Positions 10,570 through 13,143 of a stretch of DNA of 64,000 nt are shown here, piece after piece; the stretch's first letter is position 1; each line of letters opens with the position of its first letter. Both the position numbers and the translations under genes were made by a program. The notes under the pieces were generated by a model that was given only the letters and a program-made list of their open reading frames with translations, was not told where the DNA came from and made no database searches. The stretch comes from Yoonia sp. I 8.24 (GTDB taxonomy: Bacteria; Pseudomonadota; Alphaproteobacteria; Rhodobacterales; Rhodobacteraceae), in assembly GCF_022096995.1 (NCBI RefSeq), contig NZ_JACXGQ010000004.1, forward strand, positions 1-64,000, read 5' to 3'.

Positions 10570-10851
10570 TTAGTTGCCGTTCAAACGATCCCGCAAAAGC
10601 TTGCCGGTCTTGAAGAACGGAACATGTTTCTCTTCGACTTCGACCGCTTCCCCCGTGCGCGGGTTACGGCCAATACGCTGGTCCCGTTTTTTCACCGAAA
10701 ACGCGCCAAAGCCACGTAATTCGACACGGTCGCCCCGCGACATAGCGTCTGTGATCTCTTCAAAGATCGTATTCACAATTCTCTCAACGTCACGTTGATA
10801 CAGATGCGGGTTCTCATCAGCAATTTTTTGAATCAATTCAGAACGGATCAT
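10570..10851 (-). CDS. ihfB: Integration host factor subunit beta
   Basis: DNA-bending nucleoid protein, partner of IHF-alpha. 93 residues with the signature [26 protein letters not shown], whose Pro in RNPRTGE intercalates into DNA. The start was set at MIRSELI, the family start; 19 upstream codons are open but unsupported. First gene of ihfB-lapA-trpF-trpB. In relatives rpsA normally lies immediately upstream; here it does not, so ihfB depends on a promoter in the gap. Confidence 0.96.
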
Positions 10852-10910
10852 AACGTAGCCTCCCAAAATACACATATCACATCGTCGCGGTTTATCCCCG
10901 CTTTTCAAAT

Positions 10911-10999: not shown

Positions 11000-11116
11000 A
11001 ATCCATCTAAACCCCGGCCTTCGGGTCGTGGCACGATTTTCGGCACCACAGATAAAATGAATGATTCGCACGCAGGCCGCGCGCGAATCGTCATTGACCA
11101 TTTGGTCAATTTTTAT
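11000..11116 (+). ncRNA. Candidate small RNA in the ihfB upstream gap
   Basis: The 337-base stretch 10852-11188 holds no gene. On the plus strand it contains three hairpins in series: an 8-bp stem with one mismatch and a UUCG tetraloop (11012-11031), a 10-bp stem with one mismatch (11063-11089, arms GATTCGC-A-CGC and GCG-C-GCGAATC), and a terminator-like ATTGACC / GGTCAAT stem followed by TTTT (11093-11115). No plus-strand gene follows, so the terminator must serve a transcript that begins within the gap. The 5' end is a guess; no convincing promoter was identified. Confidence 0.4.
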
Positions 11117-11188: not shown

Positions 11189-12031
11189 CTAGTCAAGGTA
11201 GGCGTCAGCGCGCTGCCCCGCCCGTTCTTCGTGGATAGGAAGCGTGCGCCCATAAAGCTGTTTTGTCCGCTCGACACTGCCGACCATTCCCGGTTCTTCA
11301 ACATAAGAAAAGATCGCGACATAGCGCGGGCGCTCACCCTCAAGCGGCGCAACACGGTGGAGAGAGTACCGACCGCGAAACAGCTGCAAATCGCCCGGTT
11401 CAAGGTTGAGCACATGTATCTTGTCTGACGTTCCATCCAAGACGCGTTTCACCTCAGGGAAGTTCTCATCTTTTTCGCGGATTTTCGGGGCGTATTCAAA
11501 TGCGCCTCCCGCGTTGGCATTTTGAATTGCGAGCGTCACGGTGAAATTGTTGGTGTCAAAGTGCCACGGAAATCCGTTTCCTTCCGACGCCATGTTCACA
11601 ATCACATCCGCGAGCGGATCAGCGTAGCGATAAAACTTCTCTTCCTGCAGGCAATCTTGAATGAACTGATCGAAACCTTCGAAATCATGCACCTGCCGCA
11701 ACGGGCCATCTTTGGCAAAGTTATCCGCCGCAATGAACGCATTCGAGCGGTCATAAAACTGACGCCGCGGATCATCCTCGGGCAGGCTGGGGTCATCTTG
11801 GCTAAAGTAGACGTTGGTTTTGCTGAATGAGCTATGCCCCCGATCGGCAACGCCGTCTGCTTCTTCGGTAAGCGCAGCAACACCCGCAGGCGTCAAGAAC
11901 CCTTTCAAAACGGCGCAACCGTCTTTTTCTAGATCCGCCCAAACGCGGGCCAAGACTGCATTTCTTTCAGGGCTATCAGATTGGATCGGATAATCCGCAA
12001 GATTGATCAGGTCAGTATCAGAAATTTGCAT
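11189..12031 (-). CDS. HalD/BesD-like Fe(II)/2-oxoglutarate oxygenase
   Basis: 280 residues resembling the set annotated 'HalD/BesD family halogenase': DGCAVLKGFL near 37, NVYFSQDDPSLPEDDPR near 73, a metal motif WHFDTNNFTVTLAIQ (His157, Asp159), GGAFEYAPKIR, then LFRGRYSLHRVAPLEGERPR giving the distal His225 and the 2-oxoglutarate-binding Arg (probably 236), and IFSYVEEPGM. True BesD/HalD halogenases have Gly or Ala in place of the Asp; here the Asp is present, so hydroxylation is more likely than halogenation. A GGAGGA ribosome-binding site precedes the ATG and can pair with CTCCT just upstream. Transcribed alone. Substrate unknown; amino acids are used by characterised relatives. Confidence 0.72.
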   Translation of the reverse strand: MQISDTDLINLADYPIQSDSPERNAVLARVWADLEKDGCAVLKGFLTPAGVAALTEEADGVADRGHSSFSKTNVYFSQDDPSLPEDDPRRQFYDRSNAFIAADNFAKDGPLRQVHDFEGFDQFIQDCLQEEKFYRYADPLADVIVNMASEGNGFPWHFDTNNFTVTLAIQNANAGGAFEYAPKIREKDENFPEVKRVLDGTSDKIHVLNLEPGDLQLFRGRYSLHRVAPLEGERPRYVAIFSYVEEPGMVGSVERTKQLYGRTLPIHEERAGQRADAYLD

Positions 12032-12192: not shown

Positions 12193-12957
12193 TCACACGA
12201 ACTGTTCACGGATCAACCGTTCCTCAAGCCCATGTCCCGGATCAAATAAAATCCGGTGTTTGATCGTCGGCTCTGACCGGATTTCAACGCTCGACACATC
12301 GCGCACAGATTCCCCATCGGCATCGGCCATCACAGGACGTTTGGCAGGATCGATCACATCGAACCGCACAACCGCCCGCTTGGGCAGCAAGGCCCCCCGC
12401 CAACGCCGCGGCCGAAACGCTGACATTGCCGTGAGCGCAAGCACATCCGACCCAATCGGCAAGATCGGCCCATGCGCGGAATAGTTATAGGCGGTCGACC
12501 CGGCAGGCGTCGCCAAAAGCGCGCCATCGCACACCAGTTCAGGCAACCGCAGTTTGCCATCAACGGTGATCCGCAATTTCGCTGCCTGCGGCCCTGCGCG
12601 CAGCAAGCTGACCTCGTTAATCGCCAGCGCGTCGTGCATCTGGCCATCCACGGTGAGCGCGGTCATCGCCAGTGGGTTGATCACCTCTTCGACGGCAGCA
12701 TTCAACCGTTCACCCAGATCATCCGCACTATATTCATTCATCAAGAACCCAACGGTGCCGCGGTTCATACCGTACACAGGCACATCTAGCTCTTGGGTGC
12801 TGTGCAAGGTCTGCAACATGAACCCGTCACCACCCAACGCAACAATGACATCAGCCTGTGCTGGCGCGACACCATTATGCAGCGCCGTCAATGCGTGCAG
12901 CGCAGTTTGTGCAGTCGGTACGGGGCTGGCAACAAAGGCGATTTTAGGCTGCGTCAT
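12193..12957 (-). CDS. nadK: NAD kinase
   Basis: Phosphorylates NAD to NADP. 254 residues. Core motifs: VALGGDGFML (GGDG at 42-45), YGMNRGTVGFL, a NEVSLLR stretch and TPAGSTAYNYSAHGPI. The start MTQPKIAFV was chosen because homology begins there; 33 upstream codons are open but unsupported. Divergent from glyA. An inverted repeat GTGTGA-AAAT-TCACAC (12183-12198) covers its stop codon but lacks a T-run. Confidence 0.94.
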   Translation of the reverse strand: MTQPKIAFVASPVPTAQTALHALTALHNGVAPAQADVIVALGGDGFMLQTLHSTQELDVPVYGMNRGTVGFLMNEYSADDLGERLNAAVEEVINPLAMTALTVDGQMHDALAINEVSLLRAGPQAAKLRITVDGKLRLPELVCDGALLATPAGSTAYNYSAHGPILPIGSDVLALTAMSAFRPRRWRGALLPKRAVVRFDVIDPAKRPVMADADGESVRDVSSVEIRSEPTIKHRILFDPGHGLEERLIREQFV

Positions 12958-13143
12958 TGGTGAATTATTCCTCTTATTCGACCTAGTAGTGAGCGGATCA
13001 CCCGTGAAACGCAAGACGCCGATAAGAAACCTACATGACGCGCTCATAAAGATCATGGTCGTTTTGATGCTTTAGAACGGGGCATTCCTACGGTATGAGG
13101 TCCCATCACTTTGCAATTGGCCCCTGAGACAAGGAAAACACCC

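Follow-up and report, generated by a model that had tools for sequence, protein, structure and literature searches.

The window analysed here, i.e. the whole stretch of 64,000 nucleotides from Yoonia sp. I 8.24, a bacterium of marine type (contig NZ_JACXGQ010000004.1, positions 1 to 64,000), encodes on its minus strand a protein of 280 amino acids, P0001, which is provisionally identified as a HalD-like Fe(II)/2-oxoglutarate (2OG) oxygenase. A preliminary description had reported an open reading frame with the motif His157-x-Asp159 at 11189-12031, and it is present as claimed, with Phe158 between the two metal residues. The gene and its surroundings are as follows.

10570..10908, minus strand: downstream neighbour, an IHF/HU-type DNA-binding protein as read from the sequence, with no family search
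11063..11089, minus strand: terminator-like hairpin of 12 pairs just 3' of the P0001 gene (weak evidence)
11189..12031, minus strand: gene of P0001, putative HxD HalD-like Fe(II)/2-oxoglutarate oxygenase (ATG-to-stop open reading frame, 280 amino acids, PF23169 match, alignment and model)
12193..13056, minus strand: upstream neighbour, a NAD kinase as read from the sequence, with no family search

Beyond these flanking genes lies a gene read from its sequence as SHMT, and P0001 is encoded by a solitary gene in a housekeeping setting. L003 and L023, the two nearest relatives, share the SHMT and NAD-kinase genes with the window, and only L023 has a call for the IHF-like gene; no amino-acid operon was seen around the gene in the window or in these two relatives. 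Terminator-like hairpins number five in the stretch against a shuffle mean of 3.6, and a promoter scan found nothing.

P0001 matches the Pfam family HalD (PF23169) with 56 bits (gathering cut-off 26, E 4.9e-15), as do all 35 rows, at E <= 0.01, of the orthologue alignment A1, in which P0001 is included. The NCBIfam model NF042920, the BesD equivalog (L-lysine 4-chlorinase), gives P0001 15.7 bits against a cut-off of 450. PhyH (PF05721) scores 21.3 bits, just below its cut-off of 22, and matches 28 of the 35 A1 rows at E <= 0.01 (best E 2.9e-06), so P0001 is genuinely, if remotely, related to PhyH and the cut-off may be exceeded by some orthologues, while WelO5 (PF22814) yields 19.3 bits, below its cut-off of 27. 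In a sequence search of solved structures, the best matches were HalB, lysine halogenases including BesD, and a lysine hydroxylase, with E values of 0.0005 to 0.009.

The AlphaFold2 model of P0001, built from A1 and thus on 35 fairly similar sequences (pLDDT 87.5, pTM 0.87), has the double-stranded beta-helix fold when compared with the PDB by Foldseek. This comparison returned 811 chains at E <= 0.001, and the best 50 of the 811 are all of Fe/2OG type by title, where ranks 1-41 are occupied by BesD, HalA, HalB, HalD or the lysine hydroxylase "Hydrox". VIA-align gives Z scores of 19.9-21.4 for ten BesD-family entries, 17.9 for the eleventh (9oet) and 17.1 for the next protein, PHD2, the last two being tied by the rule of that program. 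At the profile level, 19 sequences from the window's own group OG1 (20 places with at least 414 bits) and from OG1b (6 places, 292-366 bits, 55-63% identity) align with 6 BesD-family sequences by hhalign at 96.1% probability over 185 columns. As the BesD family leads in both fold and profile ranks, the preliminary label "HalD/BesD-like" is right at the level of family, fold and profile (PF23169, Foldseek, VIA-align), though not at that of the BesD equivalog (15.7 vs 450 bits). The outcome which that description had set against its own reading, a PhyH protein unrelated to BesD, did not occur: the nearest solved structures belong to the BesD family, and a PhyH placement of P0001 was rejected on its score just under the cut-off and on fold matches favouring BesD.

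P0001 contains the Fe(II)/2OG oxygenase signature, i.e. a HxD...H triad followed by an arginine about 10 residues past the second histidine, encoded at the following positions.

11555..11563, minus strand: codons of His157-Phe158-Asp159, the metal motif, opposite BesD H140-W-G142 in PDB-chain numbering
11357..11359, minus strand: codon of His225, the second metal histidine, aligned with BesD H207
11324..11326, minus strand: codon of Arg236, the residue for the 2-oxoglutarate/succinate carboxylate, aligned with BesD R218

All 35 rows of A1, which has a mean column identity of 75%, share H157, F158, D159, H225 and R236. The motif W-H-x-D is found in all 103 homologues called by a simple gene caller, a count that includes window copies and duplicate loci and stands beside 20 further loci without a HalD call. 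In the joint alignment, D159 of P0001 lies opposite Gly142 of BesD (PDB-chain numbering) and is Asp in 13/13 OG1 rows; the HxG/A of BesD-type halogenases is thus replaced by HxD, the metal site shared by the BesD-family lysine hydroxylase PDB 7jsd (segment WHWDD). According to the available text of PMC13244439, Hydrox was made a halogenase by D142G + N149I + V223N, the glycine change alone being insufficient. At the positions of BesD G142, I149 and N222, P0001 possesses D159, T166 and I240, which are invariant in 13/13 OG1 and 6/6 OG1b rows, and its first and second shells are therefore unlike those of a halogenase. The earlier argument that Asp in place of Gly/Ala speaks for oxygenation is backed by the HxD lysine hydroxylase in the family and by these three residues. 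That P0001 is a halogenase, with Asp159 moved aside or with chloride at another site, is scarcely credible: its membership of PF23169 and its best structural matches, which are halogenases, would suit such an enzyme, but the HxD is invariant and none of the three Hydrox-to-halogenase positions is in the halogenase state. The halogenase reading was rejected on the invariant HxD and on the states of T166 and I240, and the inference from the motif that P0001 is probably not a halogenase holds, as all three switch positions are in a non-halogenase state.

BesD relatives are treated as predicted hydroxylases, or a hydroxylase as the ancestor of BesD, in the parts of PMC8407142 and PMC10187165 that were available, and HxD within the BesD family is therefore not itself new. 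HxD hydroxylases in this family are already known; the newer part is the present clade and its neighbours. A locus from the same phylum as the window (L093, 1450-2957) encodes a protein with 279 bits on PF23169 and WHWDD, i.e. HxD and not HxG, and a gene reading as a methyltransferase starts 14 bp after this HalD-like gene.

The phylogeny against BesD-family and HxD homologues, which had been proposed as a check, assigns P0001 to a distinct HxD clade outside the BesD family. In the 64-sequence IQ-TREE tree, the 13 OG1 rows form one clade (100/99) and the 7 BesD-family rows another (100/99), and OG1 joins the 6 OG1b rows, all 19 grouping at 100/100. OG1 is thus separate from the BesD-family sequences in a tree in which long branches join the two, with a warning from the tool that such branches may mislead, and in which Hydrox is a partial row. 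Other HxD groups branch beside OG1/OG1b, where the group labels (DddP-linked, OG2 etc.) do not all correspond to single clades.

Relatives of P0001 were identified from 218 pattern matches in a species-genome scan, 199 of which encode a relative; the best 80 of these 199 are 66-96% identical to P0001 over nearly the full length. The dN/dS of P0001 is about 0.06 (NG86) against L003 (the nearest relative), L010 and L016; dS approaches saturation (2.6-2.7) for the last two and was not computable against L004 and L013. In the window's bacterial family, 44 of 149 genomes encode a HalD-like homologue (E <= 1e-15), and 26 of the 64 HalD-like places score at least 292 bits, one per genome in 26 genomes. 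Homologues also occur in 34/289 genomes of the class and 23/398 genomes of the phylum sample, the window genome included. Gene calls in the relatives come from an in-house codon-usage script, which misses or extends genes, leaves some open reading frames with N-terminal extensions and gave no HalD call in L144, L146, L162 and L173.

The window's genome encodes a further HalD-like copy, 35% identical, on another contig. This second HxD copy (G000 contig C7:145065-145784; L002, L176) adjoins genes read from their sequences as Bax-inhibitor-like and cupin-like. Two genomes of the same class (G614 and G682) show an unusual expansion to 7 and 6 HalD-like matches, respectively. Relatives in plasmid records are annotated as "2OG-Fe(II) oxygenase" or "hypothetical protein", and on Pantoea and Klebsiella plasmids (L091, L092) the HalD-like gene stands with a divergent LysR gene, with a DUF2817 gene and an ABC amino-acid-type binding protein on the other side.

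The substrate pocket was compared at the following residues.

11747..11749, minus strand: codon of Arg95 at the BesD R77 position (substrate carboxylate), tentative, from MAFFT, hhalign differing here
11612..11614, minus strand: codon of Leu140 at the BesD E123 position (lysine ammonium), from the alignment
11570..11572, minus strand: codon of Phe154 at the BesD H137 position (lysine carboxylate), from the alignment and hhalign
11552..11554, minus strand: codon of Thr160 at the BesD D143 position (lysine ammonium), from the alignment and hhalign

In BesD, simulation described in the accessible part of PMC13244439 has the lysine ammonium held by E123, D143 and D239 and the carboxylate by R77, H137 and W241, while the same text has succinate held by R218 and N222. 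The comparison covers the BesD segment that ends before D239 and W241. P0001 has L140 for E123, T160 for D143, F154 for H137, R236 for R218, I240 for N222 and, tentatively, R95 for R77, the last match being uncertain because MAFFT makes it and the hhalign profile alignment places the region differently. L140, T160 and F154 are present in 13/13 OG1 rows, against E, D and H in 7/7 BesD-family rows, where even the three HxD rows keep the equivalents of E123, D143 and H137. On its 2OG side P0001 thus appears conserved, and one of the carboxylate anchors may be kept as well, but the alignable ammonium grip is missing; a lysine-like free amino acid is an unlikely substrate, and a carboxylate with a non-primary-amine end would be the more likely one.

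The preliminary expectation of a hydroxylase of a free amino acid is consequently retained, as a prediction, for the hydroxylase, and the free amino acid is disfavoured by L140, T160 and F154 in place of E123, D143 and H137. It is still conceivable, though rather unlikely, that P0001 hydroxylates a free amino acid as Hydrox does, with another side-chain pocket. Among the closest solved structures are HalB in complex with lysine and HalD in complex with ornithine, R95 stands at the position of the carboxylate-binding arginine (MAFFT), a trans-3-hydroxy-L-proline-dehydratase-like gene adjoins the relative L139, and in the sister clades genes of the aromatic amino acid lyase family adjoin L185 and L186. 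Against this, the alignable ammonium acids are Leu and Thr, the second carboxylate residue is Phe in 13/13 OG1 rows, and no amino-acid operon was seen in the surroundings in the window and its two nearest relatives.

Outside the window and its two nearest relatives, OG1 genes occur in unrelated places. The commonest neighbour is an RNase-J-like gene upstream (20 of 94 loci; names read from sequence), and this gene with nuo/birA/coaX-like genes before it recurs in 17 to 21 of the 94 loci; this commonest OG1 context is synteny rather than a pathway. Among the 75 loci with a call, a same-strand neighbour within 60 bp was found upstream in 5/71 and downstream in 5/73, two of the latter five overlapping the OG1 gene and looking spurious, and the gene is therefore usually solitary.

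A minority of OG1 and OG1b loci contain possible partners. In L065 (OG1), a HIBADH-like gene, a class II aldolase gene and a TmpA/butyrobetaine-dioxygenase-like oxygenase gene lie on one strand and are followed 63 bp later by OG1; this oxygenase scores 271.5 bits on the TmpA model (cut-off 400), 167 bits against PDB 6npb and 258.2 bits on the butyrobetaine dioxygenase model (cut-off 414.75). In L067 a HIBADH-like gene ends 9 bp upstream of OG1 on the same strand. The L138 run (OG1b) consists of an enolase-family gene, a HIBADH-like gene (20 bp upstream), the oxygenase and an MDR dehydrogenase gene (7 bp downstream), while in L139 (OG1b) a trans-3-hydroxyproline-dehydratase-like gene (459.9 bits on the trans-3-hydroxy-L-proline-dehydratase model, cut-off 550) and a HIBADH-like gene, which overlaps as called, precede the oxygenase. 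A gene for an MDR-type dehydrogenase lies 87 bp downstream of OG1 in L057 and 41 bp away, upstream or downstream, in L133, and another precedes the OG1 match in L066, where the caller gave no HalD call. The HIBADH-like genes of L138 and L139 and the MDR genes of L138, L057 and L133 share the strand of the HalD-like gene. Comparable genes are found in two sister-clade loci: on the strand opposite to the HalD-like gene, L142 carries an aldolase gene and a TmpA/butyrobetaine-like one, and in L141 a same-strand HIBADH-like gene lies 15 bp downstream and is followed by a weaker aldolase match (88.8 bits). An oxygenase that makes an alcohol, with a hydroxyacid dehydrogenase acting next, would be the natural reading of this minority, from which any pathway has to be deduced since the window gene is solitary.

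These neighbours also bear on a modification of a protein or peptide by P0001, in the manner of prolyl hydroxylases, which would need no metabolic operon. In the fold lists, the ranks after the BesD family are taken by chains of PHD2, Trichoplax PHD, Pseudomonas P4H-EF-Tu and Tpa1/OGFOD1, the gene mostly occurs by itself in a housekeeping setting, and a mean column identity of 75% is high. Such a function is nevertheless highly unlikely, as the BesD family scores better and over a longer alignment, relatives adjoin small-molecule dehydrogenases, transporters and lyases, and OG1/OG1b is present in only 26 of 149 genomes of the family, a low count for an enzyme that would modify a core factor.

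In the sister clades, a DddP-like M24 gene lies within 143 bp downstream on the same strand in ten loci whose HalD-like proteins are relatives of 41-45% identity (L086, L087, L140, L143, L145, L148, L149, L150, L151 and L166), of which only L166 is from the window's family; the gene is absent at L141 and L142, and L147 ends too soon to tell. Within the window's family, 38 HalD-like genes belong neither to OG1 nor to OG1b, and 10 of them have a DddP-family gene no more than 3 kb away, the L166 pair being counted among the 10, against about 0.08 expected by chance if genomes of 4 Mb are assumed; the other 28 have no DddP-family neighbour within this distance. The pairs involve 9/24 DddP-like genes and 2/87 genes above the DddP cut-off. 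The DddP-like partners in this family score 279-395 bits on the DddP model (cut-off 600), and those of L148 and L086 score 320.7 and 347.3 bits, respectively. One HalD-like gene (L180, 7920-10062) has stops within its match, appears broken into short frames and adjoins a gene above the DddP cut-off (857 bits).

Tyr366 and Asp377 are DddP residues named in the available text of PMC4108388. Their equivalents are kept in the seven partners from L181 to L187 in the window's family, while Gly takes the place of Asp377 in the partners of L166, L087, L140, L143, L145, L148 and L151, and Asp is found in that of L086, a comparison in which L188 is out of register and L149 and L150 are not aligned. The module of L182 (6787-9773) comprises a divergent LysR-type gene (read from sequence), a HalD-like HxD oxygenase gene and a DddP-like M24 gene that overlaps the latter or lies close by; it recurs in genomes of the window's family, with similar modules in L181, L183, L186, L187 and L188. 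In L185 (6606-10305) and L186 (5273-9124) the HalD-like and DddP-like genes are accompanied by the gene of the aromatic amino acid lyase family; that of L185 has ergothionase as its best PDB match (118.3 bits, vs 113.5 for histidine ammonia-lyase). No paper describing the HalD-like/DddP-like pairing was found in the literature searched. These neighbours suggest, for the sister clades though not for OG1, the catabolism of small zwitterions.

For the window gene itself a DddP link was rejected, as a DddP-family gene within 3 kb was found for 0 of the 26 members of OG1/OG1b. The window's genome has no DddP-family match at E <= 1e-60 and two weak M24 matches (35.5 and 34.6 bits). OG1/OG1b and DddP-family genes do co-occur (24/26 genomes vs 63/123 of the others, Fisher p 5.5e-5, phylogeny uncorrected), a result that is not used as evidence because marine lineages alone could cause it.

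The family, fold, metal motif, conservation and separate clade of P0001 are results of computation, and Fe/2OG chemistry and hydroxylation are what we infer for it. With a probability of roughly 0.7, P0001 is jointly of the Fe(II)/2OG hydroxylase class and without a BesD-type amino acid site; given an oxygen-adding metal site and a pocket unlike that for lysine, it would most likely be a hydroxylase of another small molecule. In the proposed mechanism, H157, D159 and H225 would hold Fe(II) and R236 would hold 2-oxoglutarate, while Asp159 would occupy the position on the metal that chloride takes in BesD, and the Fe(IV)=O intermediate would consequently rebound as OH. This stand-alone oxygenase of HalD/BesD fold would thereby hydroxylate a C-H bond without halogenation. 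The substrate, the least certain element, may be a small metabolite that bears a carboxylate and, at its other end, something other than a primary ammonium group, e.g. a betaine-like or neutral acid; the new alcohol could then be oxidised, as part of accessory catabolism, by a dehydrogenase of the 3-hydroxyisobutyrate-dehydrogenase-like or MDR type.

A broader proposal, speculative and rather unlikely, takes the HxD sister clades of BesD to be a family that oxygenates onium-type zwitterions, i.e. carboxylates with a quaternary ammonium or sulfonium group, together with partners of DddP-type, ergothionase-like or dehydrogenase kind. The window enzyme would be the solitary marine branch of this family and would hydroxylate a betaine-like osmolyte. 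A methylated cation would be compatible with Leu and Thr in place of both alignable ammonium acids and with the position of Phe154 close to the metal His. If the DddP-like and TmpA/butyrobetaine-hydroxylase-like pairings in the sister clades belong to one chemistry, they would mark an as yet unassigned route for a small zwitterion. The Pfam name "Halogenase D", read literally, would suggest chlorination of free amino acids, and the residues of this clade say otherwise. The clade is also a natural HxD comparison for the origin of the BesD chloride site, for which a hydroxylase ancestor is proposed in the portion of PMC10187165 that was available.

Among known systems, the PhyH and WelO5 families are only weak matches to P0001, both under their curated cut-offs. 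TmpA and gamma-butyrobetaine dioxygenase are also Fe/2OG oxygenases and are represented by the partners of OG1 (L065) and of a sister-clade gene (L142); these partners belong to Pfam TauD (PF02668), whereas P0001 has no TauD match at E <= 1. BesD, HalA, HalB and HalD (6nie, 9oer, 7u6i and 7u6h) are the best structural and profile matches of P0001 (HalB, Z 21.4), but contain Gly for the metal Asp, and their other halogenase and lysine residues differ from those of P0001. Hydrox (7jsd / 9oet) shares with P0001 the predicted fold (7jsd: VIA Z 20.9, rmsd 3.8, 237 residues), the HxD motif and the 2OG arginine, yet it is only 16-18% identical, falls in a separate clade and contains THGWHWDD with the lysine-site residues E, H and D, where P0001 has GFPWHFDTN with L140, F154 and T160.
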